From Amycolatopsis cihanbeyliensis (GTDB lineage: Bacteria > Actinomycetota > Actinomycetes > Mycobacteriales > Pseudonocardiaceae), in assembly GCF_006715045.1 (NCBI RefSeq), contig NZ_VFML01000001.1, positions 6,222,746-6,286,745 on the forward strand: 64,000 nucleotides of DNA, in the 5' to 3' direction. Shown piece after piece: positions 1-29,077 of this stretch. The stretch's first letter is position 1, and every line of letters starts with the position of its first letter. Made by a program: the position numbers and the translations under genes. Below the pieces are notes generated by a model. The model saw only the letters and a program-made list of their open reading frames with translations. It made no database searches and had not been told where the DNA came from.

Positions 1-1940
1 GCCCCAGAGGGTTGTCCGTTCTGGAACGCCTGTGTGCCAACGAGCGGAAGAAGCCCGCACAATCCGCCCTGACCGTGCATGTCATCGACCCGTGTACTCC
101 CGGAGCCGGCGCCGTGTGGCGCCCCGACCAGTCTCGCCACCTTCTGACGAACACCGTGGCGTCGCAGATCACGGTCTACACCGACGACAGTGCGCAGATC
201 GAAGGACCGATCGAGCCGGGTCCCAGCCTGTACGAATGGGCCAAGGACATGGCCGCGCTTGGCCCGCAGGGCACCCCCGACGACGAGATCCTTGCCGAGG
301 CCCGCAACCTTGGCCCGGACTGTTATCCCACGCGCGCCTTCTACGGGCGTTACCTCCACGACGGTTTCCACCGGGTGGTGCTGCACGCGCCGGAGCACGT
401 CACCATCCACGTGCATCGGTCGCGCGCCGTCGCGATGGCCGACACCCAGGGCATCACCGGCGGCCCGCAGGGCATCCGGCTGGAGAACGGCACTCGGCTC
501 AACCACCTGGATGCCATCGTCCTGGCACAGGGGCACGTATCGGCGGGGCTCACACCCCACCAGGAGAGGATCGCGAGCCTTGCCCGTATCCACCACCTCA
601 GCTATCTCACCCCCGCCAATCCCGCCGACCTGGACCTGAGCACGATCGAACCGGGCGAGACGGTGCTGCTGCGTGGCCTCGGCCTGAACTTCTTCGATCA
701 TATGGCGCTGTTCACCGTGGGCCGCGGCGGATCGTTTGTCCGTGAGGGGAGACGTCTGGTCTATCGGTCGTCAGGACGGGAGCCCGTACTGTCCGCGAGC
801 TCGCGTCGCGGCGTTCCTTACCACGCCCGTGGGGACAACGAGAAGGGCGCCTTCGGCAGGCACCGGCCCCGGCTGCTCACCGAAGAGTTCATCGCGGAGT
901 TGCGTGGTCGCACCGAGGACGGTGAGCGGGTGAACTTCAGCGAGGATCTGTGGCCACTTATCGCCAAGGAGGTGGAGGGCGTCTACTACGGCGCCCTCCT
1001 TGCCTCCTATGGCCGCGAGGGCGACGGTGAGCGCTTTCTCGAGCGGTACCTGCCCCTGCCGGAAGGTACGCAACAGGCCCGGCTGCTGGCCGAGTACGGC
1101 ATCGGCGCCGACGACCGATGGGACTGGGACCGGATCTCGATGCCCTATCGTGGACGCGAGTTCATCGACCGCGACGACTTCTGGTCGTGGCTGCTGGAGT
1201 ACCTGGCAAGGGACGTCCACGAGGCGAAGGCCGGCAATCTCTCCAGCCCGCTCAAATCGGCGCTGGACGTGTTGCGGGACCTGCGCAACGAGATCAGGCT
1301 CGCGGTGGACCACGGTGGCCTGGATGGCAACTCGCACCGCGACGACCTGGAGGGCTGGTACACCCCGCTCAACGCGTTCCTTTCGATCGGCCCGCCCGCT
1401 TCCCGGATCGAGGAGATGATCGCGCTGATCGAGGCCGGAATCCTGGAGCTCACCGGGCCGGGCACGCTGATTCGCATCGACACCGGCGGACGCGCCTTCG
1501 TCGCCGAGTCCAGTCTGGTGCCCGGCCGCCCGGTGCGGTCGAGGATCCTCATCGAGGCCCGGCTGCCCGTACCCAACCTGTGCCGCACGTCGGACCCGCT
1601 GTTGCGCCACCTGCTCGATACCGACCAGTGCGCCCCCTATCGCATCGCCGGATCCTGCGGGGTCAGTTACGAGACCGGCGGGCTCGCGGTCACCGAGCGC
1701 CCCAACCGGCTCCTCGACGTGGAGGGCAGGGCTCATCCGCGGCGCTTCGCCTACGGAGTTCCCACCGAATCCGTGCACTGGGTCACCCAGGCCGGCATCC
1801 GCCCCGGGGTGGACTCGGTGACGCTGCGTGACTCGGATGCGATCGCCCGTGCGGTACTTGCCCTGCCCCCCGTCGCGCACGTGCCCGCCGCGGTGCGGCC
1901 GCCCGCGTCCGAAACGGATCTCACCGGCGTGATCGTATGA
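1..1940 (+). CDS. FAD/NAD(P)-binding protein, 5' end cut by window
   Basis: The frame is already open at position 3 and reads P-R-G-L-S-V-L-E-R-L before any ATG. This matches the GPRG-x-SVLERL stretch just after the dinucleotide-binding glycines of the NAD_binding_9 (HI0933-like) family, so the TTG at 12 is not the start and the first residues lie outside the window. About 645 residues remain. The PGAGAVWRPDQ region and later segments fit the large FAD/NAD(P)-binding proteins of actinomycetes. Such proteins are flavoenzyme-like, but few have a known substrate. It is followed on the same strand by a START-like protein (131 bp gap) and an MpaB-type oxygenase, so it may be a redox partner or tailoring enzyme of the cluster. 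The family call is fairly secure; the role is inference. Confidence 0.7.
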   Translation, partial: PRGLSVLERLCANERKKPAQSALTVHVIDPCTPGAGAVWRPDQSRHLLTNTVASQITVYTDDSAQIEGPIEPGPSLYEWAKDMAALGPQGTPDDEILAEARNLGPDCYPTRAFYGRYLHDGFHRVVLHAPEHVTIHVHRSRAVAMADTQGITGGPQGIRLENGTRLNHLDAIVLAQGHVSAGLTPHQERIASLARIHHLSYLTPANPADLDLSTIEPGETVLLRGLGLNFFDHMALFTVGRGGSFVREGRRLVYRSSGREPVLSASSRRGVPYHARGDNEKGAFGRHRPRLLTEEFIAELRGRTEDGERVNFSEDLWPLIAKEVEGVYYGALLASYGREGDGERFLERYLPLPEGTQQARLLAEYGIGADDRWDWDRISMPYRGREFIDRDDFWSWLLEYLARDVHEAKAGNLSSPLKSALDVLRDLRNEIRLAVDHGGLDGNSHRDDLEGWYTPLNAFLSIGPPASRIEEMIALIEAGILELTGPGTLIRIDTGGRAFVAESSLVPGRPVRSRILIEARLPVPNLCRTSDPLLRHLLDTDQCAPYRIAGSCGVSYETGGLAVTERPNRLLDVEGRAHPRRFAYGVPTESVHWVTQAGIRPGVDSVTLRDSDAIARAVLALPPVAHVPAAVRPPASETDLTGVIV

Positions 1941-2071
1941 CCGAGCAACCGTGAGGCGGCGGCCCTGTGCGGTCCGGCCGGCTACACCGGCCTCGCAGGG
2001 AGGCATGACAAACCTGACGAACCCCGATCCGGCCGATGGCCGGTGCGGAGGGTCGCTGAGAGGATCTGGAC

Positions 2072-2614
2072 ATGAATGCATCCATTATCGAACAATCGCC
2101 GCTTTTCGAGCTCAGGGCCGATCTGCCCGTCGCGGCCACACCGGATGAGGTCTATGCGGTGGTCAGCGACCTGACCCGCAGCGCGGAGTGGAGCCCGGAA
2201 TGCAAAGGAGGAGAGTGGATCTCCGGTGAGCCGTCGACGGTCGGGGCGATCTTCCGTGGCGAGAACCTGCGTAGCGAAGAAGTGGTTTCCTGGGCTCCGC
2301 TGGTACGCGGCACGTGGTACACCGAGTCCAGGGTCGTCGCGGCCGAACCCGGTCGCACCTTCCGCTGGATGATGCTCTCCCATGCCAAGGAAAGCCAGGA
2401 CAGCGTCTGGGGCTTCGACATCGAGGCCGCGGAGGACGGCTGCGTGCTCGTCCACCACTTCCGGATGGGAAGAGCCACCGCGGGGATCCACAAGATCGTC
2501 GAGGAACTGGAGGAGACGGCACGGGAGCGGTTCGTCGCCGACTGGACGGCGAAGCTGAAGCAGGACCTCGACGAGACACTCGAGCACATCAGGGACGTCA
2601 TCGTGACGACATAG
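2072..2614 (+). CDS. SRPBCC (START/polyketide-cyclase-like) protein
   Basis: A 180-residue protein with the SRPBCC fold pattern: an early V-A-A-T-P-D-E-V-Y strand and helix, the R-S-A-E-W-S-P-E turn near residue 35, an F-R-W-M strand in the middle, and a long C-terminal helix rich in E, L and K. The fold forms a deep hydrophobic pocket and serves as lipid or aromatic carrier, cyclase or aromatase. The ATG is preceded by AGAGG at a good distance. It sits between the flavin-binding protein and the oxygenase, 40 bp from the latter, apparently in one operon. Holding or folding a hydrophobic prenylated intermediate is a reasonable guess, but no catalytic residue identifies a reaction. Confidence 0.75.
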   Translation: MNASIIEQSPLFELRADLPVAATPDEVYAVVSDLTRSAEWSPECKGGEWISGEPSTVGAIFRGENLRSEEVVSWAPLVRGTWYTESRVVAAEPGRTFRWMMLSHAKESQDSVWGFDIEAAEDGCVLVHHFRMGRATAGIHKIVEELEETARERFVADWTAKLKQDLDETLEHIRDVIVTT

Positions 2615-2654: not shown

Positions 2655-3626
2655 ATGGTATCGCTACTCCTGAGCAAGCGGCGCACCGAGCAGCGGTACG
2701 CACGGCTGCGCGAAATCGAGAGCATGGATGTTGGGACGCACTACACCCGTATCTGGTACCTCGCGATGGGAACCGAGTTTCCCTGGGACTACAGCCTGTC
2801 AGGGGCACTCGGTTTCTACAACAGTATCGCCCCGCGCGGTATCGCCGATATACTGGTGCGGACAGGCGAGCTGACGGGTAACACCCGGCGGCGAATGGAG
2901 CACCACGGCGCCATCAGCCTCGAAATAGCTCGGCGCGGATGCCGGGAGCCCAGCGGCAAAGCGGCGGTCCGGCAGTTGAACCGCATTCACCACAACGCCA
3001 TCAAAAGCATCAGTACCCATGGGCACGAGTTCACCATCACCAATGAGATGTACCTGTTCGTGCTGGCCACCAGCATGCTCACCCAGATGCGGTGGGTCGA
3101 CCGCCACGGCTGGCGCCCGCTGAGCGAACAGGAGCGCAAGGCCGCCTGCCTGCATTTCAGGGAGCAGGGCAAGAACATGGGTATGACCGGTATTCCCGAG
3201 TCCTACGACGAATTCGTGCGCCTGCACGACGATTACGTCGACACTCACGTCCACTATTCACCCGAGGCGGAAAAGCTCTACCGGGCGACACAGGATGTCA
3301 TCATCGGGCCGCTGGTCGGATGGCTTCCTGCTCGGCTGACCACGATCGGAACCCGGGTCGCCAGGGCCGTCGTGCCCGCGCTGCTGACCCCGCACCTACG
3401 CAGGGCGTTCGGCGTTGCCACCCCTTCACCGTTGTTGCGCGCAGCCGTGCGCCTGGCCATCAAGGCGCGCTCGGCATATGTGCGCCGGACACCACCACGC
3501 CAACACCCGATCTATCCTGATCCCCTGCCCACCACGGATTTCCCGCAGGCAGACTATGAGTGGGCGCAGCTCGGGCCATCGCATTCCGGCAGTGCGACGC
3601 CCGGATGTGGTATCCGGCCCGCCTGA
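2655..3626 (+). CDS. MpaB/Lcp-type (DUF2236) oxygenase
   Basis: A 323-residue protein of the DUF2236 family. It shows the family's L-N-R-I-H-H-N motif (about residues 108-114), the E-M-Y-L-F-V-L-A-T-S-M-L helix (131-142) followed by W-V-D-R-H-G-W-R-P-L, and the G-M-T-G-I-P segment near 180. Characterised relatives are haem enzymes that cut isoprenoid double bonds oxidatively: latex-clearing protein Lcp on rubber, and fungal MpaB, which cleaves the farnesyl chain in mycophenolic acid biosynthesis. In a window with polyprenyl synthase and UbiA prenyltransferase genes, oxidative trimming of a prenyl chain is an attractive but unproven role. AAAGGAAAG precedes the ATG. The 3' end overlaps the convergent ketoreductase gene by 73 bp. 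Confidence 0.75.
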   Translation: MVSLLLSKRRTEQRYARLREIESMDVGTHYTRIWYLAMGTEFPWDYSLSGALGFYNSIAPRGIADILVRTGELTGNTRRRMEHHGAISLEIARRGCREPSGKAAVRQLNRIHHNAIKSISTHGHEFTITNEMYLFVLATSMLTQMRWVDRHGWRPLSEQERKAACLHFREQGKNMGMTGIPESYDEFVRLHDDYVDTHVHYSPEAEKLYRATQDVIIGPLVGWLPARLTTIGTRVARAVVPALLTPHLRRAFGVATPSPLLRAAVRLAIKARSAYVRRTPPRQHPIYPDPLPTTDFPQADYEWAQLGPSHSGSATPGCGIRPA

Positions 3627-4606
3627 GACCAGCCGGCTGATGAGACCATCGGTCCGGCGTGCCGGAGCACTTCGTGCAGCAGATCGGCCTGTGCAAGGCA
3701 GTCTGCTCGCGGTGCCGCGCCCGCGTGTACGGCGGCGACGAAGGCGGTAACGGTGTTGGCCACCTGATCGTCCGGGTCCAGCCGGATCTCCCGCGGGCCG
3801 AACCGGTTCTCGAGGCGCAATACCGGCGCGTGGTCCGCGGGCGGGGTAAAGGCGCGGTCGACGGTGATCCGGCCCGTGCTTCCCCAGAGCTCGTAGGCAT
3901 TGCGGTACGCGTGGTCCAGCCCGAAGGTCAGCTGCCCGCTGATCCCCCCGGGGCTGCGCAGCAGCGCCGAGCCCGCGGTGTGCACCGCGTAGCCGGTGCC
4001 CCTGGTGAGGGTGGCTCCCACCACCTGAAGGCCGGGGCCGAGCAAGTGCAGCGCGGCGCGAACCGGATAGACGCCGGTGTCCCAGAGCGCCCCGCCGTCC
4101 AGCTCGGGACGGTAGCGGATGTCGTCGCCCGGCAGCCTGGGGACGGCGAAGGCGGACTGGAAGGCTCGCAGCTCCCCAATGGCATCGTCCGCGACCAGCT
4201 GACGTACCCGCGCGTGCTGGCTGTGGTGGATGAACATGACGTTCTCCATCAGCGCCAGCCCGAGCGAGCCGGCCAGTTCGAACAGCCGGGCGGACCGGTC
4301 CCGATCCGTGGTCAGCGGTTTCTCAGCGAGTACATGCTTTCCCGCCCACAGCGCCGCTTCCACCCAGTCGGCATGCAGCGCCGCCGGCAGCGGTACGTAA
4401 ACCGCCTGGACGGTGTCGTCCCGCAGCAGGGCCGCGTAGCCGTGCACCGCGCGGCAGTCGTACTCCTTGGCGAGTGCATCCGCCTGCGCCGCGTCCCGGC
4501 TGGCTACCGCGGCGACCTCGGTGTCTGCGGCCGCGGCGAAGGCGGGAAGCATGCGGTGCCGGGCGATGGCCGCACAACCCAGCACGCCGATCCGGACCGG
4601 CGCCAT
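3554..4606 (-). CDS. NDP-hexose 3-ketoreductase (Gfo/Idh/MocA family)
   Basis: A 350-residue oxidoreductase with an N-terminal Rossmann motif (I-G-V-L-G-C-A-A-I-A, residues about 6-15), the A-E-K-P-L catalytic-lysine motif near residue 94, and a Gfo/Idh/MocA C-terminal domain containing W-D-T-G-V-Y-P. Relatives in deoxysugar pathways (TylC1, EryBII-like) reduce the 3-keto group formed by the 2,3-dehydratase, giving NDP-4-keto-2,6-dideoxyglucose. The 2,3-dehydratase partner lies at 11285-12688. The ATG shares one base with the stop of the upstream epimerase (TGATG), so the two are translationally coupled. It is the last gene of the sugar operon. Confidence 0.85.
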   Translation of the reverse strand: MAPVRIGVLGCAAIARHRMLPAFAAAADTEVAAVASRDAAQADALAKEYDCRAVHGYAALLRDDTVQAVYVPLPAALHADWVEAALWAGKHVLAEKPLTTDRDRSARLFELAGSLGLALMENVMFIHHSQHARVRQLVADDAIGELRAFQSAFAVPRLPGDDIRYRPELDGGALWDTGVYPVRAALHLLGPGLQVVGATLTRGTGYAVHTAGSALLRSPGGISGQLTFGLDHAYRNAYELWGSTGRITVDRAFTPPADHAPVLRLENRFGPREIRLDPDDQVANTVTAFVAAVHAGAAPRADCLAQADLLHEVLRHAGPMVSSAGWSQAGRIPHPGVALPECDGPSCAHS

Positions 4607-5178
4607 CACGCCGGCCGCCAGAGTGGGAGAATTCCGGTGGACAACGCCTCGGCCAGTCCGATCGCGTGAGTGTCCTTCTCGGACATGAGCGGCGCCTCGG
4701 TGAAACCCCATGGAAGCGCGAGATCCGGATCCAAGGGGTTGAGATCGATCTGCGTTCCGGGTACGAACATCGTGGACATGATGTAGCAGATACAGGTGTC
4801 CTCGGTGAGTGCGAGGAAGCCGTGCCCCACGCCCTCTGGCAGGTAGACCGAAACTCCCGAGGCCGCGTCGAGCACGGCCGAATGGTAACGGCCGAAGGCG
4901 GGGGAGCCCACCCGCAGATCCACCACGATGTCGCGCAGCGCACCGCGTACGCAGGTGACGTACTTCGCCTGTCCTGGCGGGGTCACCGCGCTGTGGATGC
5001 CGCGCAGCGTGTTGCCGCGGGACACGGAGTAGCTGATCTGCTTTGGCACGAAGGGCTCGTTCAGCATGCGCTCGAACGTGTCGGCACGCATGGACTCGTA
5101 GAAGCTCCCCCGGTCGTCCCGGTGCTGGTGCGGGGTGATGACGTACGCTCCGGGAACCGCGGTTTCGGCGACATGCAT
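4606..5178 (-). CDS. dTDP-4-keto-deoxysugar 5- or 3,5-epimerase (RmlC family)
   Basis: A 190-residue RmlC-type cupin. The active-site region L-R-G-I-H-S (catalytic His at about residue 62) is followed by P-P-G-Q-A-K-Y-V-T-C-V-R-G and D-I-V-V-D-L-R-V-G-S-P, typical of epimerases in antibiotic sugar clusters. These enzymes epimerise C5 (or C3 and C5) of NDP-4-keto-6-deoxyhexoses and so set the L configuration. Together with the C3-methyltransferase this points to an L-sugar such as L-mycarose or L-axenose. GGAGAG lies upstream of the ATG. The gene is followed with a one-base overlap by the 3-ketoreductase. Whether it acts at C5 only cannot be told from the sequence. Confidence 0.85.
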   Translation of the reverse strand: MHVAETAVPGAYVITPHQHRDDRGSFYESMRADTFERMLNEPFVPKQISYSVSRGNTLRGIHSAVTPPGQAKYVTCVRGALRDIVVDLRVGSPAFGRYHSAVLDAASGVSVYLPEGVGHGFLALTEDTCICYIMSTMFVPGTQIDLNPLDPDLALPWGFTEAPLMSEKDTHAIGLAEALSTGILPLWRPA

Positions 5179-5236: not shown

Positions 5237-6340
5237 TCAGCCGGCCAACTTCTCCATTACGGGCACGATCTCGGCTGGGGCTGGCAGTGCGGCGATCTCC
5301 CGCGAAAGCTCGCGCGCCCGTTCCCCGTACCCCGGGTTCGACAGCAAGTCGTTGCAGGCAGCGACGATGTTCTCCGGACGCTGCTCGTCCGAGGTGAGGG
5401 TGAGCGCGGCACCGTAGTCGACCACCTGCTGCGTCGCCGCCGTCGGGTACTCCGGGTTGGCGATCAGCTGCGGGACGCCGGCGTTCAGTGCGGTCATGTC
5501 GGTGCCGCCGCCGCCATGGTGGATGATGATGTCGCAGGTGGGTGCCAGGATGTCCAGCGGAACCCAGCCGATTCGCACACCGGGCAGGTCCGCGCGTAGC
5601 TCCTCGGCGATCTGTTCGGGTGCCCCGACCACGATCTCCACGTTCAGTCCGGAAAGGTTCCGGATCATCTCCAGCAGGGCATCGCCGCTGAACAGCCGGG
5701 TACCGGCGGTGAGGTACACCCTGGGACGGTCTCCCTTGGCGTACATCCACTGCTCGAGCGGCTGTTGCGGATTCGCCGGGATCCACCGCATCGGTTGTGC
5801 GGGCACGGCGTCCGGTGGCAGCAGGCTGGGTGGGCAGACGCCGAGCCACAGGTCGGGGGCGGGAACCTGAGCCAGGTTCAGTTCGGCGAGCAGCGGCTGT
5901 AGCACCTCGATGGCGCCGGGGTCGTACATCCGTGCGTCGATGCGGTCCCACTCCAGCCGCACCGACGGGACGCCGAGGTGATGAGCGAGGAGCGGAGCGC
6001 AATAGAACATGCCGCCGCCGACCACGATATCCGGGCGCCAATGCTCCGACAGCTCAAGTAGTGGCTCCAAGCTGTTGATGGCTATCTCGGCGTACACTCC
6101 GCCGACCGCCTTGGCCTGTTCCACCGGATCCTCTGGCATCGAGCCGACGAAGGCGCTGACCTCCTCTATCGAAAGGGGAGAGATCTTCACCGGAGGTAGG
6201 CCGACGCTGGCTATCCTCGGCAGGACCCATTCGATCCCTCCCATCAGGACCTGGTGTCCGGCGTTGCGGACCGCGGTTGCCAGCGGGGCGTGCGAAAAGA
6301 TCGGGTACGGGCTATTCCCTGGTACGAACAGAACCTTCAT
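5237..6340 (-). CDS. GT1-family macrolide-type glycosyltransferase
   Basis: A 367-residue GT-B glycosyltransferase. It starts M-K-V-L-F-V-P-G-N, has an N-terminal acceptor domain, and carries the C-terminal sugar-nucleotide signature H-H-G-G-G-G-T at about residue 280, followed by A-L-N-A-G-V-P-Q-L. This is the EryCIII/DesVII type found in antibiotic clusters. It is the only glycosyltransferase in the window and lies in the deoxysugar operon, so it presumably transfers the C-methylated dideoxyhexose. No DesVIII-type activator gene is seen. GGAG precedes the start. The acceptor is inferred to be the prenylated 3-hydroxyanthranilate. Confidence 0.88.
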   Translation of the reverse strand: MKVLFVPGNSPYPIFSHAPLATAVRNAGHQVLMGGIEWVLPRIASVGLPPVKISPLSIEEVSAFVGSMPEDPVEQAKAVGGVYAEIAINSLEPLLELSEHWRPDIVVGGGMFYCAPLLAHHLGVPSVRLEWDRIDARMYDPGAIEVLQPLLAELNLAQVPAPDLWLGVCPPSLLPPDAVPAQPMRWIPANPQQPLEQWMYAKGDRPRVYLTAGTRLFSGDALLEMIRNLSGLNVEIVVGAPEQIAEELRADLPGVRIGWVPLDILAPTCDIIIHHGGGGTDMTALNAGVPQLIANPEYPTAATQQVVDYGAALTLTSDEQRPENIVAACNDLLSNPGYGERARELSREIAALPAPAEIVPVMEKLAG

Positions 6341-6381: not shown

Positions 6382-7725
6382 TCAACTGACCGTGGTGAGT
6401 GCTGCCGCGGCCCTGACGCCGGACAGCAGCGCGGCCTCCGTGGTCGGGGCGTTGAAATAGTCGCCTGCGAAGACCACGGGCGCGCCCTGCTGTCGCATCA
6501 CCTGAACCGCCTGGTGGTAGCGACCAGGTGCCGGAATCGGAAACCCGTAAGGACGTTCGGCGATCCGGAACGGCTGGGCGTCGGTTGGGAAGTCCGGCCA
6601 CAACGTGGTCAGCAGCGGGGTGACCGCGGCGAACTGCTCCTCCTCGGTGCGGCCGATCAGGCGGCGGGTATTGGCCCGGCCCGGGTAGGTGAACACCAGG
6701 AGCTTGTCCACGAGCCCGCCATGTGCGTCCCGCACCTGGCGCGGGTGGGTGATCATGTTTCGTAGCGGTGGGTCGTCCGGGCCGCCGGCCACGATATGTG
6801 CTTCGGCCGGCATGCTGCCCGCGTCGACCAGGTAGGAGACCGAAAGGGCCGGTTCGTACTCCTGAGTTTCCAGGAACTTGCGGGCCGTGGAACCAACGAC
6901 ATCCGGCGGCATGGCCGCGGTGAGCTTCGCGGCGATCGGGGCGGGGGTGGCGATCAGCACGTCGTCGAACGTCTCGGTGACCGGTTCGCCCTCGGTGTGC
7001 AGTGCGGTGACCCTTACCTTGCCGTCGACCAGTCGCAGGTCGGTGACCTGGTGGCTGAGCCGGAGGTCGGCGCCCTCCGCGTTCTTCTCGGCGATGATCT
7101 CCATGCCACCCCGGAACACGTAGAAGCCGGAGCCGCCCATCCAGGCCAGTAGCGCCCTGGCGTGCACGGCGGAGATGTCCTCGCACGCGAAGTTCCAGAA
7201 CCCTTCGATCTGAGGTCGCAGCAGGAAGTCGAAGCCGCGCCGGGAAACGTGCCGGTAGCCGTATTCGGCGGCGGTGCTTCCATCGTCGAGCGGTGCGGAC
7301 ATGATCGGGTCGAACAGGCTGAGCTCATTGCGCCTGCGGACTTCTCTCAAGGTGGTGAACAGGAACGAGAACCGGTCCTTGAGCGAGACGTGCTTGTAGC
7401 TGAGCAGGCTGCGCGGGGAGTCAGAGGACAGGCTCACCGGCACGCCGTTGTCGACGACGAAGACGTCGCTGGAGAGCTGAACGAGCTCGTCGGAAAGCCC
7501 GTACTCGCGGATGTGTTCGGACATCAGTTGATAGAAGCTGACGTACATGAGGTTGATGCCCACATCGGGTTCGATCTCGGGGCTGTGCCACGAACGAGCT
7601 CGCCCGCCGAGCCCGTCCGCTGTTTCGAAGATGACAACCTCCCTTCCTGCCGTGATGAGCTCCTTGGCAGCGGCGCAACCGGCCATGCCACCACCGATGA
7701 TTGCGGTCCTCGCGCCACCGGACAT
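6382..7725 (-). CDS. FAD-dependent amine-oxidase/desaturase-like oxidoreductase
   Basis: A protein of about 447 residues with an N-terminal FAD motif (I-I-G-G-G-M-A-G-C then E-T-A-D-G-L-G-G-R-A-R), and a C-terminal F-A-G-D-Y motif closing the FAD site. This layout belongs to the protoporphyrinogen oxidase, phytoene desaturase and amine oxidase superfamily. There are two candidate ATGs at 7731 and 7725. The second sits nine bases from a strong GGAGG and is preferred. In this operon it could oxidise or isomerise the isoprenoid chain or act on the sugar or aromatic amine; the sequence does not decide. The long hydrophobic stretches usual in carotenoid enzymes are weak. Confidence 0.75.
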   Translation of the reverse strand: MSGGARTAIIGGGMAGCAAAKELITAGREVVIFETADGLGGRARSWHSPEIEPDVGINLMYVSFYQLMSEHIREYGLSDELVQLSSDVFVVDNGVPVSLSSDSPRSLLSYKHVSLKDRFSFLFTTLREVRRRNELSLFDPIMSAPLDDGSTAAEYGYRHVSRRGFDFLLRPQIEGFWNFACEDISAVHARALLAWMGGSGFYVFRGGMEIIAEKNAEGADLRLSHQVTDLRLVDGKVRVTALHTEGEPVTETFDDVLIATPAPIAAKLTAAMPPDVVGSTARKFLETQEYEPALSVSYLVDAGSMPAEAHIVAGGPDDPPLRNMITHPRQVRDAHGGLVDKLLVFTYPGRANTRRLIGRTEEEQFAAVTPLLTTLWPDFPTDAQPFRIAERPYGFPIPAPGRYHQAVQVMRQQGAPVVFAGDYFNAPTTEAALLSGVRAAAALTTVS

Positions 7726-7773
7726 GTGCATCTACCTCCGTCGTCAGGGTGAGAAGTTGTTGGTACGCCGCCC

Positions 7774-8553: not shown

Positions 8554-8584
8554 GGGACCCTTCTCGACGTTTGTGGACAGGGGG

Positions 8585-14727: not shown

Positions 14728-14750
14728 GGATGTCCCCTTCTGTGTCGCGC

Positions 14751-17485: not shown

Positions 17486-17529
17486 GGACCCCTCCACGTG
17501 TGGAATGGCAGGATCGCCGGCCGTCCGGG

Positions 17530-18795: not shown

Positions 18796-19087
18796 ATGAT
18801 CCTCCGGGCCGGTGTCGCTGCGGAACGCACTCACCGGGAGTGCCGCGCTCGGCCGTCCTTATCGGTTGGTTTTCACACTAGAAATTTCTCCTTCCGAGCT
18901 GAATGGCAAGCCGATAACAAGGTTCATTGCTACGGGGCTGAGGCGTAGCTGGTTCGTGCCGGCCTGCCTTTTCAGGGTTGACTTCACAACCGCGCGGCGC
19001 CCACGCTGGACATTACCAGCGATAGAAGGGCAGTAATTCGATGCCGACGCCTTTTATATGGACCACCAGCAGGGAAGCGGAGCGAGG

Positions 19088-21104: not shown

Positions 21105-21163
21105 GGGAGAACCGAAATGTCGCTGACGAACACACCTGGGTTCTGCTCGGAGGAGGGATCGCG

Positions 21164-23011
21164 ATGACCCTGCTTGAGACGGTGCACAGCCCGGCGCAAC
21201 TGCGCGGACGGACCACCGAGGAACTGTACGTACTCGCCGGTGAGATCCGCGAGTTCCTGATCGACCGGGTGTCCTCCGTAGGGGGGCACCTGGGACCCAA
21301 CCTCGGCGTGGTGGAGTTGACGATCGCGCTGCACAGCGTGTTCGAGTCGCCCCGGGATCGGTTCCTGTGGGACATCGGGCATCAGGCGTACGTGCACAAG
21401 ATCCTGACGGGCAGGCGCGCCGGCTTCGACCGGCTGCGGCAGAAGGGCGGGCTGTCCGGCTATCCCAGTGCCGCCGAGTCCGAGCATGATCTGGTGGAGA
21501 ACTCGCATGCTTCCACCGCGCTGTCCTACGCCGACGGCCTCGCCCGTGCCGATGCCCACAACGGCCGCACCGACCGGGCCGTGGTGGCGATTATCGGGGA
21601 CGGCGCGATGACCGGCGGCATGGCCTGGGAGGCACTGAACAACATCGCCGGCGGTCCCGACCGCCCCCTGATCATCGTGCTCAACGACAATCAGCGCTCC
21701 TACGCGCCCACCAGGGGCGGGCTGGCCGACCACCTCACCGAACTGCGCGCGGGGCACCCGGGGCGAGGCATGTTCGAGCAACTGGGACTGGCCTACCTCG
21801 GCACGGTCGACGGCCACGACGTGGTGGCCGTGCAGGACGCGCTACGCGAGGCGCGGGAGGTCGGCGGGCCGGTGGTCGTGCATGTGGTCACTGAGAAGGG
21901 GCGAGGTTTCGCGCATACCGAGAACAACGACGTGGACCGGGGACACGTGGTCAAGCCGATGGACCCGCGCACAGGGGAGGCGCTCGGCGCGCCTGCCGGG
22001 CCCTCGTTCACCGCGGTGTTCGGCAAGGAGATCACCAGGCTCGCGCAGGAGCGATCGGACATCGTCGCGATCACCGCGGCGATGCTGGAGCCGACCGGGC
22101 TTGTCCCGATGCAGCAGCGGTTCCCGGACCGGGTCATCGACGTGGGGCTCGCCGAGCAGCATGCCGTCACCATGGCCGCAGGGCTTTCCATGGGTGGGGT
22201 GCACCCGGTGGTAGCCATCTACTCCACCTTCGTCAATCGCGCGCTGGACCAACTGCTGATGGATGTGGCCCTGCACCGCCGCGCGGTGACCTTCGTACTG
22301 GATCGTTCCGGGATCACCGGCGACGACGGCCCCAGTCACAACGGCATGTGGGATATGTCGATCCTGCAGGTGGTGCCCGGACTCCGGATCGCGGCACCGC
22401 GAGACGGCACCCGGCTGGCCGAACTCCTCCGCGAGGCTGTCGCCTGGGAGGAAACCCCGACCCTGATCCGGTTCCCGAAGGGCCCGACCGGTGCGGACCT
22501 GCCGGCCGTGACGACATTCGCGGGTATGGATGTATTACACCGCTCCGGGCCGTTGGACGTGCTTATCGTCTCGGTGGGCGCGCTGGCCGGCGTCGCCCTG
22601 AGAGTCGCCGAAATGGTCGAAGCCCAGGGCATCGGGACGACGGTGGTGGACCCTCGCTGGGTGATCCCGGTCAATCCGGCGCTCGGCGATATGGCGCGCA
22701 GGCACCGGCGGGTGATCACCATCGAGGACAACAGCCGTACCGGCGGAGTGGGTGCGACCATCGCCCAATCACTGCGGGACGCGGGCGTCGGCACCCGGCT
22801 GCGCGAGTTCGGCATCCCCCGGCGCTTCCTCGATCACGGGAAGCGCGCCGACGTGCTTTCCGCATGCGGGCTGACCGCGCAGGATATCTCACTTGCCGTG
22901 ATCGAGGACGTCGCCGAGCTGGAATCGGTGCCATGCGACGCCGGAGGCGAGGATCTCGGCGTGGAGATGGTCCGGTTACTACAGCACGAAAGCGGAAGGG
23001 AAGAACGGTGA
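21164..23011 (+). CDS. dxs: 1-deoxy-D-xylulose-5-phosphate synthase
   Basis: A 615-residue [15 protein letters not shown] near the N-terminus, the thiamine diphosphate motif [16 protein letters not shown], and the transketolase segment [11 protein letters not shown] are intact. The loop after the thiamine site reads [10 protein letters not shown] rather than the more usual N-D-N-x-M-S-I, a feature of secondary DXS copies. The start at 21164 follows GGAGGAGGG. Two TTA leucine codons (22535, 22976) occur. Its stop overlaps the ispG start (GTGA). It catalyses the rate-limiting entry of the MEP pathway. Confidence 0.93.
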
Positions 23012-24168
23012 CGGCCGTAACTCTGGGCATACCGACAATCGGTGCGAAAGAAGAAGAGGTTCCGCTTTCTGTTGCCAATCGGCGTATGTCGCGTCAGATC
23101 ATGGTCGGATCGGTACCAGTGGGCGGGAAGGCCCCCGTTTCGGTGCAGTCGATGACCACCACGCTGACGTCCGATGTGGATGCCACCTTGCAACAGATCG
23201 CCGAGCTGACCGCGGCCGGCTGCCAGATCGTCCGGGTCGCGGTGCCATCGGCCGATGACGCCGCGGCGCTTCCGATCATCGCGAAGAAGTCGCAGCTTCC
23301 AGTGATCGCGGACATCCATTTCCAGCCCAAGTATGTTTTCGCGGCGATCGACGCCGGCTGCGCGGCAGTGCGGGTGAACCCCGGAAATATCAAGAAGTTC
23401 GACGACAAGGTAGGTGATATCGCGAAAGCCGCCGCGGACGCCGGAATTCCGATCCGGATCGGGGTGAACGCCGGGTCGCTTGACAAGCGGCTGCTCGAGA
23501 AATACGGCAAAGCCACCCCGGACGCGCTGGTCGAGTCGGCGCTGTGGGAGTGCTCCCTTTTTGAGGAGCATGGTTTTGGCGATATCAAGATCTCGGTCAA
23601 GCATAATGACCCGGTTGTGATGATCGAGGCCTACCGGCGACTGGCGGCCAGGTGCGACTATCCGTTGCATCTCGGGGTGACCGAGGCCGGCCCGCAGTTT
23701 CAGGGCACGATCAAGTCCGCGGTGGCCTTCGGGGCATTGCTGGCCGAGGGGATCGGCGACACCATCCGGGTGTCGCTGTCCTGCCCGCCGGTCGAGGAGG
23801 TCAAGGTCGGCAACCAGATCCTGGAGTCCCTTGCGCTCAGGGAGCGTGGCCTCGACATCGTCTCGTGCCCGTCCTGTGGGCGCGCGCAGGTGGACGTGCA
23901 CACGTTGAGCGAGCGAGTATCCGCGGCACTGGAGGGCTTCCCGGTACCGCTGCGGGTGGCCGTGATGGGCTGTGTCGTCAACGGCCCCGGCGAGGCAAGG
24001 GAGGCGGACCTCGGAGTGGCGTCCGGTAACGGCAAGGGTCAGATCTTCGTCAAGGGCGAGGTCATCAAGACCGTTCCCGAATCCGAGATCGTCGAAGCCC
24101 TCCTCGAGGAAGCGGTGCGCATCGCCGAGGAGAGGGGCATTGCGGTCGATCCCGACGCGATCGCCTGA
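23008..24168 (+). CDS. ispG: (E)-4-hydroxy-3-methylbut-2-enyl-diphosphate synthase
   Basis: A 386-residue IspG/GcpE. The TIM-barrel part has S-V-Q-S-M-T-T-T and D-I-H-F, and R-V-N-P-G-N-I; the C-terminal part holds the iron-sulphur cysteines in S-C-P-S-C-G-R and [10 protein letters not shown]. It makes HMBPP, the substrate of the ispH product encoded three genes upstream. The GTG start lies inside the dxs stop codon (GTGA), a clear translational coupling. It is the last gene of the isoprenoid operon. Confidence 0.93.
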
Positions 24169-24543: not shown

Positions 24544-26916
24544 GTGAGCGCCCCCTCGATCTATGCTCCCACCGAGCTTGTCGGCCGTGCGGTCGAGTTC
24601 GGTTCTCTCCGGGATGAGCTGCTCGGTCCGGGCGGCCGGATGATCACCGTTACCGGCCCGGTAGGTGTTGGCAAGAGCCGGCTCGCCGCCGCGCTGTTCG
24701 AGCATGTTTCACCCGAGTTCGAAGATGGTGGGTGTTTCCTCGACCTGACCGACGTGGACCCGCTGCGGCCGGACGGCGTACTCGCCGCGATGATCACCAT
24801 GGCCGAGGCCGAGGCCGGGACCGAGGCCGCCACGGCGCAGGAGCGCGTGGTGAGCTACCTGCGCGACAAGCACTTCCTGCTGGTACTCGACGGTTGCGAG
24901 CATCTGATGGAGATGCTGCCCTCGTTGCTCGCCGCCCTGGTCACGGCCTGTCCTCGGCTGTCGACGCTCGTCGTCAGCCTCGAGCCGCTACGGGTGTACG
25001 GCGAGGCGCTGTTCAGGTTGACGCCGCTGCCGGTTCCTGATCCAAGGCGGTGCGACGATCTGGCCGCGTTGCAGCAGGTACCGGCCGTCCTGCTGTTCGT
25101 GCAGCGGACCAGAGCGGTGCGGCCGGGCTTCACGCTGACCACTGAGAACCGCGAAGCGGTTGCCAGGCTGTCCGTGCTGACCGACGGCCTGCCGCTGGCG
25201 ATCGAGCTCGCGGCGGCGCAAATGAAGCTGTCGTCGCCGCAGAACCTGCTGGCGACGTTGGACGGTGACTTGGCCCGCCTCTCCGGAACAGGATCCGACA
25301 CGCTGTCCCGGCACCACTGCATGCGTGCGGCGGTCGCGTGGAGTTTGAAGCGGCTGCGCAACGACGAGCAGATGTTCCTTGGCAGCCTCGCGTTGTTCCC
25401 GGATCAGTTCGATCTCGACGCGGCCGGGGGAGTGGCACGGACCGGCGCGGCCGAGACACACCGGTTTCTGGAACAGCTCGTGGACAGGAACCTGCTGCAA
25501 ACGGGGGAATGCCTTGACGGGGACCTCACCTTCAGCATGTTCGGACTCACGCGACTGTACGTACTGCAGTGGCTGCGGCAGACGGGTGACTACGAGCGCG
25601 TCCTGCGCGGCCACGCCGACTACTTCCTGGACATGGCCGAGACCGCGGAATCCGCGTTGGCCGGTCCCGGGCAGGCACGATGGCTCCACCGACTTGAGTC
25701 CTGGCACGGTGCTGTGGAGGTCGCGCTGCGTTTCCTGACCAGCGCGGGCGACGGTGCCCGCGCGGTGAGCCTCGCCTCCGCGCTGCGCTTGTACTGGCTC
25801 GGCCGGGGCAAAGCCACCAGCGGCAAGCACTGGCTGAAGGAAGGCCTCGGCACCGAAGGGCTGCCGGAACACCTCGCGGCCAAGGGCGAGGCGGTGCTTG
25901 GCGAGCTCATGCTGTGGACCGGCGAGCAGGAGGCCGCCGTGAAGTGCCTGACCAGTGCCCGCGGCAGATACCAGGAGCTGGGGGACCCGCGGGGCGATGC
26001 CACCTGCCTGAACCGGTTGGGGCTGGCCGCCTACTACCACGGGGACCTGGCCGAAGCCGAGCGGGTGCTCGACGAGAGCGTCGTCGCGTTCCAGGCTCTT
26101 GACCTGACACGCGAACATGCGATGGCGATGCGAGACCTTGCCGACTGCCACCGTGCCTCGGGCAACCTCAAGGCGGCCAAGGAGGCGGCCGAGGCCGCGC
26201 TCGCGGATTTCCTCCGGCAACAAGACCTACGCAACGTCGCGCTGACGCGGTACGTCCTGGCCGATGTCGCTCTCGACCTGGCTGATCGAGATGAGGCCGG
26301 GCGGCTCTACGACATGTCCCTCCGGGAGCTTGACGAGCTCGGTGACCTGTCAGCCTGCGCGATCGGCCTCGAGAAGTCGGCGATCCTGCTGACCAGCAGC
26401 CACGGCCGGATCACCGAGAGCTGGCGGAGGGCCGCGCGCGCACTGGGGACCGCATCGGACCTGCGTGCCACCACCGGGTGCGTGGCACCGCAGCCCGCGC
26501 AGCTCGCCGTGGACGGCGCTGTGGCAGAGGCCAGGGTACGTCTTGGTGACCATGCCATTTATGAATGTTGGGCGGAAGGCGCCGCGCTGGAGCCGGAGGC
26601 GGCCATCGCCGAGGCGCTCACCCCGGCGCAGAGCCCGCAGGTCGCTCGGCTGCGCGGGCTGACCGCGGACAGCCCGCTGACCTGCCGGGAGCTGGAAGTG
26701 GCCGGGCTGGTGGCAGGCGGAATGACCAACCGCGAGATCGGCCGGCGCCTCGGCATCGCGGAATGGACCGCTGTCAACCATATCCGCAAGATCATGCGCA
26801 AGCTGGACTGCACCTCCCGGGTGCAGGTGGCCAGCTGGATGACGAAGACGGGTACCGGCTCCGCGGTCGCGATGCCGAAGCAGCCGGATCCCCGGGCGCG
26901 TCAGAGTCCGAAATGA
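24544..26916 (+). CDS. Large ATP-binding LuxR-family regulator
   Basis: A 790-residue regulator. The N-terminal ATPase has Walker A G-P-V-G-V-G-K-S-R (about residue 38), a Walker B-like L-L-V-L-D-G-C-E-H, and G-L-P-L-A-I-E-L-A, all of the AfsR/NB-ARC type. A TPR-rich middle is followed by a C-terminal LuxR helix-turn-helix (L-T-C-R-E-L-E-V-A-G-L-V-A-G-G-M-T-N-R-E-I-G-R-R-L). The start is a GTG at 24544 with no strong ribosome site. It lies between the isoprenoid operon and the UbiA gene and is a natural candidate for pathway control. Its last 16 bases overlap the convergent UbiA gene. Confidence 0.85.
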   Translation: MSAPSIYAPTELVGRAVEFGSLRDELLGPGGRMITVTGPVGVGKSRLAAALFEHVSPEFEDGGCFLDLTDVDPLRPDGVLAAMITMAEAEAGTEAATAQERVVSYLRDKHFLLVLDGCEHLMEMLPSLLAALVTACPRLSTLVVSLEPLRVYGEALFRLTPLPVPDPRRCDDLAALQQVPAVLLFVQRTRAVRPGFTLTTENREAVARLSVLTDGLPLAIELAAAQMKLSSPQNLLATLDGDLARLSGTGSDTLSRHHCMRAAVAWSLKRLRNDEQMFLGSLALFPDQFDLDAAGGVARTGAAETHRFLEQLVDRNLLQTGECLDGDLTFSMFGLTRLYVLQWLRQTGDYERVLRGHADYFLDMAETAESALAGPGQARWLHRLESWHGAVEVALRFLTSAGDGARAVSLASALRLYWLGRGKATSGKHWLKEGLGTEGLPEHLAAKGEAVLGELMLWTGEQEAAVKCLTSARGRYQELGDPRGDATCLNRLGLAAYYHGDLAEAERVLDESVVAFQALDLTREHAMAMRDLADCHRASGNLKAAKEAAEAALADFLRQQDLRNVALTRYVLADVALDLADRDEAGRLYDMSLRELDELGDLSACAIGLEKSAILLTSSHGRITESWRRAARALGTASDLRATTGCVAPQPAQLAVDGAVAEARVRLGDHAIYECWAEGAALEPEAAIAEALTPAQSPQVARLRGLTADSPLTCRELEVAGLVAGGMTNREIGRRLGIAEWTAVNHIRKIMRKLDCTSRVQVASWMTKTGTGSAVAMPKQPDPRARQSPK

Positions 26917-27863
26917 ATGACGTTGAACAGGAGCACGCAGGCCACGGTGGTGCGGAAGGTGACCACACCCCTGCTGCGTGCCAGCAGCGCGTGACCGTTG
27001 TGTATGAAGGAGCCGTACTGGCGCAGCCGGAGCACGATGAGCGGTGCCGCGGTCACGACGAACCACCACGGAATCCAGCCCGTCACCACGGGAACCACGA
27101 TCACCAGCAGGTTGGCCGCGGTCAGGATGCCGAGGAAGATCTTGTTTCCGCGCGCTGAGGTCAGTACGGCGATGGTGCGGCGGCCTGCCGCGGCGTCCCC
27201 GCTGATGTCGTTGGTGTTGGAGTATCCGGCGATGAGTAACTGCCCGAACCCGAACAGCAGGCCCTCGGTCAGCACGAGGGCCGGCAAGGCTCCCGTGGCG
27301 AGACCGTAGGGTGCCAAGACGAATGCTGATGCGGAGAACAGCAGCAGCAGTTCGCCAAGGCCCCGGTAACTGAGTTTCAGACCCCACGAGTACTGCACGC
27401 TGAGGGTCAGCAGCAATACGGTGATCAGGATGGCCCACAGGGACTTGTTCGGTGTATGGACGATGGTGATGGTCCACCACAGGGCACCGAAGGCCAGGCT
27501 GAGGTAGCCGTACAGCTGAGCCTGACGGACGGTCAGTTCGCCGGTGAGCAGCGGCTTGCGCTTCAACGGACGTGACTGTGTCTTGCTCGCGTCCTGATAG
27601 TTGGCGCTGTCGCTGCCGTCCTTGCTGCCGGTCACGTCGTCGAGTGTCATCACCGCGAAGAGCACGCCGGCTTGACCAAGGCCGAAGAACAGCAAGGTGA
27701 GCAGGGTGTCACCGGCGAACCGTGAGGCCGGTTCCAGCGCTGTCCACATGATGATCAGAGCGAGGAAGAAGTCGAGAACGAACTGATACTTGACCAGCCT
27801 CGCGAAGCTCCCGAAGGTCTTCATGATTCCTGTCGACGTCGTGAGGCTGGCGCTCGCTGTCAT
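26901..27863 (-). CDS. UbiA-family aromatic prenyltransferase
   Basis: A 320-residue membrane protein with about eight helices. The two Asp-rich motifs of the UbiA family are visible: D-D-V-T-G-S-K-D-G-S-D (about residue 73) in the first half, and S-N-T-N-D-I-S-G-D (about residue 216) with A-G-R-R-T in the second. UbiA enzymes attach a polyprenyl group from its diphosphate to an aromatic acceptor. With 3-hydroxyanthranilate made by the aromatic arm and a polyprenyl diphosphate from the gene at 20067, C-prenylation of the aminobenzoate is the natural inference; homogentisate- or naphthoate-type acceptors are alternatives. AGGGG precedes the ATG. It is cotranscribed with the acyltransferase gene 71 bp upstream. 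Confidence 0.88.
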   Translation of the reverse strand: MTASASLTTSTGIMKTFGSFARLVKYQFVLDFFLALIIMWTALEPASRFAGDTLLTLLFFGLGQAGVLFAVMTLDDVTGSKDGSDSANYQDASKTQSRPLKRKPLLTGELTVRQAQLYGYLSLAFGALWWTITIVHTPNKSLWAILITVLLLTLSVQYSWGLKLSYRGLGELLLLFSASAFVLAPYGLATGALPALVLTEGLLFGFGQLLIAGYSNTNDISGDAAAGRRTIAVLTSARGNKIFLGILTAANLLVIVVPVVTGWIPWWFVVTAAPLIVLRLRQYGSFIHNGHALLARSRGVVTFRTTVACVLLFNVIHFGL

Positions 27864-27934
27864 GGTGACCCCTACCAGTCGGAAGTGACTCAGGACTGCT
27901 TACTTCGCCGGGGAGGCAGGCACGCGGCCCGGGC

Positions 27935-29077
27935 TCACCCGGAGACTCCGACCTTGTCGGGGCCGGGGCGGTTCTCCGGCTTCGGCTTCTTACTGCTCGC
28001 GAAGCGCTTCATCATGGGGCGTTCAACGGTGATGTGCAGCAACCACGCCAGCAGCAAGGAGATCACGAAGGAGACCGCGAGCAGCCCGATCGCCTGCGCG
28101 GTGCCCCAGGTTTGTTCGGGGTCGCCCAGTGCCATCTCGCCGTACATCTGGACCAGGCGGTGCACCAGGTAGAAGGCAAAGGAGATCTCACCGAGCCAGA
28201 CGAAAACCCGACCGCGGAGGAACGATGGAAGGTTACGGAGGTCCGCGGTGGCGGCGGCGGGAATGATGAGCGCGAGGGGAATGATTGTCGGCGCGACGGC
28301 GTGGTACGGCGACGGCGTCAGCAGCAAGGCTCCGTAGCCGGCGGCGAGGAGAAGGAATGCCGGTCCCAGGCCGAGCGGAATCCATCGTTTGGCGATGACG
28401 ATACGCGCCATCAGGATGCCGACCACGAACTCGAGCGCGCGGGCGGGTGGCAGCGTGTAGAGCAGCCAGCCCTGCCAGGTGTCCATTCCGTCCTGGGGGA
28501 GGAGCGTCGCCACGAAGATCAGAGCGAAGATCGCGGCTATGACGACGCCGACACAGAGCCAGAGTCGCGCCGCCGGAATCTTCTTGGCGAGCACGAAAAG
28601 AACCGGGAACATCAGATAAAAGAATATTTCGCAGGCCAGTGACCAGCTGACCTCGTTCAAGGAGAACATGATCTCCATCGAGGGGAACCATGCCTGCACG
28701 AGGAACAGGTTCGAGAAGATCTGCGCGCCCGTGAGCGCCTGGCCGACGGAAAACGCGAGCACGAGCGCGATTAACCAGGTGACGACGTGGTTTGGATAGA
28801 TCTTGACGACTCGCCTGCGCCAGAACCGGGCTGGGGTGTCGTTGGCGCGAACGGACCAGGCGAGGACGAATCCACTGAGAATGAAGAAGAAGCTCACGCC
28901 GATGCCGTTGGCCTTTGAGAACAAGAACTCTGCTACCTTGGAAACGCCGGTATCGCCGAAAGGCTGCAGGTAGTATGAATGGTAGAGAAAGACTGCGATC
29001 ACGGCGAGGAACCGCATGCCGGTGAGCGAAGGCAGTCGCGATGTGGGGGCCCGAGTGTCCGGGGAGGTCGAGGTCAT
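27935..29077 (-). CDS. Membrane acyltransferase (Acyltransferase 3 / MdmB type)
   Basis: A 380-residue integral membrane acyltransferase with about ten helices. After a short polar N-terminus, L-T-G-M-R-F-L-A-V and F-L-Y-H-S (catalytic-type His) appear, then F-F-I-L-S-G-F-V-L, F-W-R-R-R and W-S-L-A-C-E-I-F-F-Y. The MdmB/CarE/OafA group includes enzymes that acylate macrolide hydroxyls, among them the 4-hydroxyl of mycarose. Since this cluster makes a C-methyl dideoxysugar, sugar O-acylation is a good guess; the lipid part is another possible site. It sits directly upstream of the UbiA gene on the same strand. Confidence 0.8.
   Translation of the reverse strand: MTSTSPDTRAPTSRLPSLTGMRFLAVIAVFLYHSYYLQPFGDTGVSKVAEFLFSKANGIGVSFFFILSGFVLAWSVRANDTPARFWRRRVVKIYPNHVVTWLIALVLAFSVGQALTGAQIFSNLFLVQAWFPSMEIMFSLNEVSWSLACEIFFYLMFPVLFVLAKKIPAARLWLCVGVVIAAIFALIFVATLLPQDGMDTWQGWLLYTLPPARALEFVVGILMARIVIAKRWIPLGLGPAFLLLAAGYGALLLTPSPYHAVAPTIIPLALIIPAAATADLRNLPSFLRGRVFVWLGEISFAFYLVHRLVQMYGEMALGDPEQTWGTAQAIGLLAVSFVISLLLAWLLHITVERPMMKRFASSKKPKPENRPGPDKVGVSG

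Follow-up and report, generated by a model that had tools for sequence, protein, structure and literature searches.

A gene cluster of Amycolatopsis cihanbeyliensis predicted to direct a prenylated, glycosylated 3-hydroxyanthranilate by way of nitrogen-nitrogen chemistry

A cluster joining 3-hydroxyanthranilate, putative nitrogen-nitrogen, prenyl and sugar genes

The stretch analysed here, referred to as the window, comprises 64,000 nucleotides of the Amycolatopsis cihanbeyliensis contig NZ_VFML01000001.1 (C1, positions 6222746-6286745), its right end coinciding with the contig end. On the best reading it contains most of a biosynthetic gene cluster of ~38 kb (C1 ~6219848-6257854), which spans window positions ~1-35109 plus ~2.9 kb to the left of the window. 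The explanation that best fits its genes, and in which we have moderate confidence, is a 3-hydroxyanthranilate that is prenylated and glycosylated and has a diazo or other nitrogen-nitrogen (N-N) group, either in the final product or in an intermediate. A first-pass annotation had predicted a polyprenylated, C-methyl-dideoxyglycosylated 3-hydroxyanthranilate from a cluster at positions 1-29077. The gene classes that it named were all present where it had placed them (PhzE, PhzD, EntA and DAHP synthase, the isoprenoid operon, UbiA, the sugar set and a glycosyltransferase), and the genes agree with the predicted formation of 3-hydroxyanthranilate, its prenylation by UbiA with at least a C20 chain and glycosylation with a 2,6-dideoxy-3-C-methyl sugar; these groups of genes also occur together in relatives. 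Its boundaries, however, were too narrow on both sides, truncating CreE on the left and leaving out an adenylate-forming ligase there and a SARP regulator, an FMN reductase and an MFS exporter, up to 35109, on the right. Genes for CreE-type, SRPBCC, MpaB-type, FAD amine-oxidase-family, second short-chain dehydrogenase/reductase (SDR), DDE_5, SARP, FMN reductase and MFS proteins had gone unlisted. Because the nitrite/N-N module and the MpaB-type oxygenase were thereby omitted, the product first predicted is probably wrong in kind.

In the proposed pathway, DAHP synthase, PhzE, PhzD and an EntA-like SDR would form 3-hydroxyanthranilate, while CreE would convert L-aspartate to nitrosuccinate, from which a CreD encoded elsewhere in the genome would release nitrite. 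A CreM-like enzyme, together with the SRPBCC protein and a quinone reductase, would use this nitrite to build a diazo or N-N group on the ring, either at the original amine or, as in penzonemycin, at a second nitrogen on C4. Dxs, IspG, IspH and a polyprenyl synthase would supply a diphosphate of C20 or longer, UbiA would attach the chain to the aromatic ring, an MpaB-type heme oxygenase would probably cleave a chain double bond to leave an aldehyde or acid, and a glycosyltransferase would add a 2,6-dideoxy-3-C-methyl hexose. SARP and LuxR proteins would regulate the pathway and an MFS protein would export its product. The analysis itself shows the gene content, the retained CreE residues, the modelled fold of the MpaB-type protein and the return of the set in relatives that have one or the other of two likely nitrite sources; the diazotase activity of the ligase, all substrates, the order of the steps and the final N-N function are what we infer from sequence. 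A more specific form of the proposal is advanced only tentatively: a new natural-product class, namely a diazo, azo or hydrazone meroterpenoid glycoside on a 3-hydroxyanthranilate core, its UbiA-attached chain subsequently shortened by MpaB and its nitrite drawn from one of two interchangeable modules, CreE/CreD or nitrate import with a reductase. The core 3-hydroxyanthranilate/N-N module is known, and its elaboration by prenylation, chain cleavage and glycosylation appears to be undescribed. Natural products with diazo or N-N groups are uncommon and reactive.

Genes were identified by a codon-based gene call and assigned to families by Pfam and NCBIfam profile searches. Relatives were collected by a scan with UbiA alignment A1, which confirmed 137 loci; the best 80 of them were used. 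UbiA was 61-71% identical in 13 strains, of which 12 were tabulated (L025 being left out). As these strains were selected through UbiA, its presence in all 12 is by choice, and the gene counts given below cover the fetched stretches of genomes that are in part drafts split over contigs. Most of the gene set was found again in these 12 other actinomycete strains, and the cluster is therefore not a chance assembly. The family occurs in Streptomyces, Kibdelosporangium, Nocardiopsis and Microtetraspora, a spread over four genera that allows study in several hosts.

The 3-hydroxyanthranilate and N-N modules

Four adjacent genes would supply the aromatic core (window positions throughout unless another stretch is named):

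12751-14727, minus strand: PhzE, 2-amino-2-deoxyisochorismate synthase with fused GATase (chorismate_bind 5e-41; closest solved structure 3r74, E 1e-221)
14751-15422, minus strand: PhzD isochorismatase (isochorismatase 8e-43)
15499-16269, minus strand: EntA-like SDR, predicted to convert dihydro-3-hydroxyanthranilate to 3-hydroxyanthranilate (TIGR04316, DhbA, 345 bits against a cut-off of 300)
16319-17497, minus strand: class II DAHP (3-deoxy-D-arabino-heptulosonate 7-phosphate) synthase (PF01474 4e-120)

The first-pass assignment of PhzE, PhzD and a dihydro-3-hydroxyanthranilate dehydrogenase to 3-hydroxyanthranilate formation agrees with these genes and with their joint recurrence in relatives, each of the four being present in 9 of the 12 strains. 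The three strains lacking PhzE in the fetched stretches (Streptomyces XY006, S. africanus and Streptomyces B-S-A12) have a 69-70% identical copy on another contig, and in these drafts the cluster is therefore divided over contigs or loci. A phenazine product was considered and rejected, as Pfam found no PhzB, PhzF or PhzG family among the cluster genes within the window.

The N-N module lies at the left end of the cluster:

L009:17049-18068, next to the ligase and divergent: quinone-reductase-like zinc-dehydrogenase-family protein, 339 amino acids (aa)
L009:18296-19864, directly upstream of CreE: adenylate-forming enzyme (ligase), candidate CreM-like diazotase, 522 aa (AMP-binding 4e-38)
1-1940, plus strand, start left of the window at L009:19907 (C1 ~6222706): CreE-type FAD L-aspartate N-hydroxylase, 659 aa
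2072-2614, plus strand: SRPBCC/Polyketide_cyc2 protein, 180 aa (Pfam 1e-11; 54-74% in 12 of 12 strains, one partial)

CreE matched PDB entries 8cp2 and 8cp5 over its full length (E 4e-195), and of 12 residues used as a check, taken from the available text of the CreE structure paper (PMC10404684; an Arg cluster, Trp51 and Asn62 among them), 11 were retained, R597 being replaced by Ala. Full-length similarity and residues together thus mark the protein as an L-aspartate N-hydroxylase. The ligase contains the motifs TSGTTGVPK and YGQSE. Both the ligase and the SRPBCC protein were found in all 12 strains, the quinone reductase in 11 and CreE with CreD in eight. CreE adjoins the ligase gene here, in Kibdelosporangium persicum and in four Nocardiopsis strains, and stands one gene from it in a second locus of the same genome and in genome G123. 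In the latter, which belongs to the same taxonomic order, 40 kb hold the ligase (64%), CreE (69%), CreD (60%), DDE_5 (48%) and quinone reductase (69%) together with SRPBCC and the 3-hydroxyanthranilate quartet; UbiA was not among the called genes. As G123 carries the module with no UbiA called, the N-N module recurs separately from the prenyl genes, at least as judged from the gene call.

The second locus belongs to a further 3-hydroxyanthranilate/N-N region of the A. cihanbeyliensis genome (C1:5321177-5377540; L106, L010, L107 and L115), which contains CreD, EntA/PhzD/PhzE and a second quinone reductase/SRPBCC/ligase/CreE set, with PAPS_reduct, adenosine 5'-phosphosulfate kinase/GTPase, a weak sulfotransferase match and an FAD_binding_3 monooxygenase in addition.

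Evidence against N-N chemistry and the source of nitrite

Several observations weigh against the proposed pathway. CreD was not found in the window, L009 or L011, so CreE and CreD do not occur together here; the sole close CreD of the genome is at C1:5321183, ~0.9 Mb away (60% identical to the K. persicum CreD, which itself matches CreD structure 5xny at 5e-145). Genome searches returned CreE at an identity of at least 64% in 8 of the 12 genomes; three had no close CreE (Microtetraspora 41%, S. fumanus 37%, K. aridum none at E 1e-30), and that of S. africanus was only 58% identical and on another contig. The stretches fetched for Microtetraspora showed no nitrite source. The four genomes whose stretches lacked CreD possess CreD-family lyases elsewhere (56%, 59%, 50% and 45%), and a CreD-type lyase alone is therefore no marker of a swap in nitrite source. 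The ligase scored 85 bits against a cut-off of 975 with NF058622, the model for the AvaA6 3-aminoavenalumate diazotase, and its nearest solved structures were a FadD ligase, AMP-binding proteins and a 4-chlorobenzoyl-CoA ligase; it belongs to a very large family (2198 proteins) and may be CreM-like. Spearman correlations of pairwise identities across the strains, calculated without a significance test, were 0.62 for UbiA-IspH, 0.67 for UbiA-polyprenyl synthase, 0.51 for UbiA-DDE_5 and 0.59 for DDE_5-IspH, and 0.12 for UbiA-ligase and 0.09 for UbiA-PhzD. UbiA identities thus do not track those of the ligase or PhzD, and the prenyl and N-N halves may therefore not have travelled together throughout. 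The EntA correlations were unusable, since three strains matched the other SDR. Some module genes also lie on other contigs in XY006 and B-S-A12, and neither rmlB (4,6-dehydratase) nor a recognised 4-ketoreductase was found among the cluster genes.

The missing local CreD, the three related genomes without a close CreE and the ligase's low AvaA6 score and CoA-ligase neighbours would all be accommodated if the product first predicted were made without any N-N chemistry, the ligase being an ordinary aryl-CoA ligase and CreE a member of a neighbouring or decayed pathway. This is thought distinctly unlikely, given the recurrent placing of CreE beside or one gene from the ligase, the similar sizes of ligase, SRPBCC and quinone reductase in the penzonemycin (pzm) cluster, and the presence of a putative nitrate cassette inside two clusters whose genomes have no close CreE.

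This cassette combines an MFS transporter with a molybdopterin oxidoreductase and a pair of pyridine-nucleotide flavoproteins. It lies within the clusters of K. aridum (L154:1870-7849) and S. fumanus (L141:16101 into L142), two of the three strains without a close CreE in the genome. The same cassette stands beside CreE/CreD in Streptomyces LHD-70 and B-S-A12 (L108:4087-10203; L120:4462-10668). Pfam assignments cover the K. aridum copy and three proteins of the LHD-70 copy; none of these seven proteins showed a nitrite reductase domain. From family and context we infer nitrate to be the substrate, and the cassette's presence in clusters without a close CreE supports nitrite-dependent N-N chemistry. 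According to the available text of PMC10777205, 72 of 134 ava-type clusters have no CreE/CreD homologs and other nitrite routes have been proposed; the nitrate cassette, if so understood, would be one such alternative route, and a nitrate reductase cassette in clusters without a close CreE would mark nitrite-dependent biosynthesis in genomes.

More distant relatives were surveyed only, comprising seven loci with UbiA at 52-58% and 60 loci at 38-50%. The former (L033, L035-L038, L040 and L041; S. niveus and others) have an amine oxidase at 62-65%, a ligase at 35-39% and, in six of seven genomes, CreE at 59-61%, with CreD beside it in the two that were fetched; 3-hydroxyanthranilate genes were not seen in the stretches surveyed. 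The latter (L042-L070 and L072-L102), from many actinomycetes, share a trio of UbiA, FAD amine oxidase and adenylate-forming enzyme, whose conserved neighbours resemble aminotransferase and Gfo/Idh genes, as judged from their first residues only.

Comparison with described pathways

The closest likeness found was to the pzm cluster of Streptomyces sp. SCSIO 40020, for which the accessible text of PMC9323291 lists a 3-hydroxyanthranilate quartet (pzm6-9), a 432-aa 'transposase' (pzm10), CreD (pzm11), a 659-aa CreE (pzm12), a 334-aa quinone reductase (pzm13), a 527-aa CreM homolog (pzm18) and a 180-aa SRPBCC protein (pzm19). All of these except CreD have counterparts here, with lengths of 434, 659, 339, 522 and 180 aa from the transposase-like protein onwards, and the pzm-type 3-hydroxyanthranilate/N-N set is complete (PhzE, PhzD, EntA, DAHP synthase, CreE, quinone reductase, adenylate-forming enzyme and SRPBCC). 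In both clusters the transposase-like gene lies beside the DAHP synthase gene. This match is one of domain, length and arrangement, not of sequence comparison. As far as the pzm gene table goes, an in-cluster CreD, an acetolactate synthase and an N-acetyltransferase are found only there, whereas the isoprenoid operon, UbiA, MpaB and sugar genes are found only here; the acetolactate synthase, the coupling partner Pzm16, was not detected by Pfam among the window cluster genes. The penzonemycin pathway is proposed rather than proven, and its product is a 3-hydroxyanthranilate hydrazone whose ring bears a hydrazone nitrogen plus an acylated amine (PMC9323291), at C4 and C2, respectively, by our reading of the nuclear magnetic resonance table. 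As both nitrogens are present, the diazotised nitrogen need not be the original amine.

It was also considered that diazotisation might be transient, the ring amine being removed or replaced to leave a prenylated, glycosylated 3-hydroxybenzoate-type product without an N-N bond. Such a deamination logic operates in the Ava and Cma pathways to avenalumic and p-coumaric acid, as far as the sources consulted describe them, and the conserved quinone reductase could reduce a diazoquinone. On the other hand, no gene was recognised as AvaA7-type, in an analysis that used no AvaA7 query sequence, and the pzm cluster, as described, has a quinone reductase yet keeps its N-N bond; we regard this outcome as unlikely.

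The proposed pathway finds partial parallels in other systems. The cremeomycin pathway, in the available text of PMC11705231 and PMC10777205, likewise uses aspartate-derived nitrite by way of CreE/CreD and diazotises an arylamine through an adenylate-forming enzyme. Mpz10 (PMC4044012, as available) is a UbiA-type phenazine prenyltransferase encoded in one cluster with PhzC/D/E and isoprenoid genes; its product is a phenazine, its isoprenoid genes are those of the mevalonate route and its donor is dimethylallyl, whereas no PhzB, F or G hit was obtained among the window's cluster genes. For mycophenolic acid, the consulted part of PMC12724181 describes an aromatic prenyltransferase, MpaA, followed by chain double-bond cleavage of the MpaB type. 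The aminobenzoate of cremeomycin is a different one, with CreD outside the cluster in the present case, and the MpaA/MpaB aromatic is a fungal polyketide. MpaA is a UbiA-type enzyme. To our knowledge, cremeomycin has no prenyl chain or sugar, and mycophenolic acid no N-N chemistry and no sugar. Diazepinomicin (ECO-4601), a farnesylated dibenzodiazepinone, also combines 3-hydroxyanthranilate with a terpene; we know of no nitrite pathway or sugar in its case. A literature search of open-licence papers found, among the matches listed, no described product or cluster with these combined features, and none of the seven diazo pathways in the scheme of PMC11705231 is described, in the part available, with a terpene chain or deoxysugar.

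Prenyl supply, UbiA and the MpaB-type oxygenase

The genes assigned to prenyl supply, transfer and cleavage are as follows:

19058-20038, plus strand: IspH (Pfam/NCBIfam)
20067-21104, plus strand: polyprenyl diphosphate synthase (small residues ahead of the first catalytic DDxxD)
21101-23011, plus strand: Dxs (gene call, Pfam)
23098-24168, plus strand: IspG (Pfam)
26901-27863, minus strand: UbiA-superfamily prenyltransferase (PF01040 3e-17; both Asp-rich motifs)
2655-3626, plus strand: predicted MpaB-type alkene-cleaving heme oxygenase (PF09995 and modelled helical fold)

In the polyprenyl synthase, positions 4 and 5 ahead of the first catalytic DDxxD are both Ala. Small residues there do not stop the product at C15, and by this rule a product of C20 or longer is a reasonable expectation. 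UbiA retains both Asp-rich motifs of the superfamily intact (DDVTGxxDGSD and SNTNDxxGD). The model of the MpaB-type protein carries the alkene-cleaving heme-oxygenase fold (search of pdb and pdb_via), and with PF09995 and a putative heme-ligand His, assigned from invariance alone, it has the features of an MpaB/Lcp heme oxygenase. The gene was present in 8 of the 12 strains; among the nine best matches of a genome-level search, three had a TGA within the match, one of these being a 325-aa open frame. By analogy, the modelled fold suggests chain trimming like that of mycophenolic acid, which, if true, would be a bacterial counterpart of its prenyl-then-cleave logic.

A second MPAB_Lcp_cat protein (659 aa, domain at residues 330-563) is encoded outside the cluster at 54723-56702.

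Sugar and tailoring genes

Genes predicted for the sugar, its transfer and tailoring lie at these positions, along with an FAD oxidoreductase gene:

3554-4606, minus strand: GFO/IDH-type sugar 3-ketoreductase (Pfam 6e-22; 59-66% in 5 of 12 strains)
4606-5178, minus strand: RmlC-like sugar epimerase (Pfam 2e-48; TIGR01221 rmlC 125 bits, below the 156 cut-off)
5237-6340, minus strand, ATG at 6340: EryCIII-like glycosyltransferase (Pfam 1e-30; 56-72% in 8 of 12 strains)
6382-7731, minus strand: FAD amine-oxidase/HpnE-CrtI-like oxidoreductase (Pfam 3e-29; 59-78% in 10 of 12 strains, one partial)
7774-8601, minus strand: SDR, candidate sugar 4-ketoreductase (Pfam 6e-51; 70-76%, only in the five GFO/IDH-bearing strains)
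8585-9901, minus strand: nucleoside diphosphate (NDP)-hexose 3-C-methyltransferase (PDB 5t64 E 4e-178, TcaB9 8e-168, D-mycarose enzyme 4rv9 1e-85)
10166-11230, plus strand: RmlA-long glucose-1-phosphate thymidylyltransferase (TIGR01208 406 bits, cut-off 320)
11285-12688, plus strand: NDP-hexose 2,3-dehydratase (PF03559 2.5e-161)
27935-29077, minus strand: Acyl_transf_3 acyltransferase (Pfam 2e-32; relatives in 1 of 12 strains)

The sugar had initially been named as mycarose/axenose-type. Four functions of an L-mycarose/axenose-type set are indeed encoded (2,3-dehydratase, 3-ketoreductase, 3-C-methyltransferase and epimerase), but the 4,6-dehydratase and 4-ketoreductase steps are not accounted for within the cluster. 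A single close RmlB copy (62%) is present elsewhere in the genome and none in the window, and the SDR at 7774 is a candidate 4-ketoreductase because it was found only together with the GFO/IDH gene. 5t64 and TcaB9 are closer matches to the C-methyltransferase than the D-mycarose enzyme is. The model of the amine-oxidase-family protein had a predicted local distance difference test score of 46. Five Streptomyces (XY006, fumanus, africanus, B-S-A12 and LHD-70) possess the same GFO/IDH, RmlC, glycosyltransferase, amine-oxidase, second SDR and C-methyltransferase genes (59-76%), in the same order in all three that were read out. Six of the 12 strains (K. persicum, K. aridum, Microtetraspora and three Nocardiopsis) have a DegT/EryC1-type aminotransferase gene instead (Pfam run on four), and their sugar is therefore probably an amino sugar. 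The acyltransferase named as MdmB-type in the first pass was confirmed at the level of its Acyl_transf_3 domain; since relatives occur in only one of the 12 strains, it is, on this distribution, strain-specific tailoring and not a core gene.

A transposase-derived gene within the cluster

Between the DAHP synthase and ispH genes lies one further gene:

17530-18834, minus strand: DDE_5 transposase-derived protein, 434 aa (PF13546 8e-34; 45-56% in 12 of 12 strains)

The protein lacks the first Asp pair expected of an active DDE_5/IS701 transposase, a pair whose catalytic role we take to be that in IS701. The pair, present in the own-genome relative L121 (DDTGFPK), is replaced by RP, RL or RT in 11 of 11 aligned cluster copies; copies are listed for the window, L023, L024, L025, L029, L031, L034, L039, L071, L109 and L111. 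Of five other DDE_5 relatives, four (L122-L125) also lack the Asp pair, one having EE there, and a search of the A. cihanbeyliensis genome at E 1e-15 gave one further, partial relative (40%). In most contiguous clusters the gene stands with ispH on one side and the DAHP synthase end on the other. Six short inverted pairs were found, none longer than 19 nt, and one 13-nt pair (17362-17374/18949-18961) flanks the gene. It looks like a domesticated transposase retained with the cluster. Damage by an insertion sequence was rejected, since the gene has been kept together with the cluster and its first Asp pair is missing.

A decayed cluster, with CreD and rmlB lost, a transposase inserted and nothing made, would explain the local lack of CreD and RmlB and the mid-cluster position of the DDE_5 gene. 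We judge this very improbable: the other cluster genes are uninterrupted reading frames by the gene call, the DDE_5 gene is conserved and mostly occupies the same place, and single close copies of CreD and RmlB exist in the genome.

Regulators, export and neighbouring genes

The remaining cluster genes are:

24544-26916, plus strand: large LuxR-type regulator (39-50% identity in 12 of 12 strains)
29432-32710, minus strand: SARP-type regulator (BTAD 2e-39; revised start; 52-67% in 8 of 12 strains)
32876-33454, plus strand: NADPH-dependent FMN reductase-like protein (66% to the L034 copy; PF03358 on that relative)
33508-35109, plus strand: MFS exporter (Pfam 1e-44; 51-55% in 9 of 12 strains)

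To the right of the cluster, positions 36363-49672 hold a series of large regulators of SARP/BTAD, LuxR/AAA and NB-ARC type, among which stands an HTH_21/rve transposase-type gene (42433-43260). A TIR-domain protein (61803-63998) runs past the contig end.

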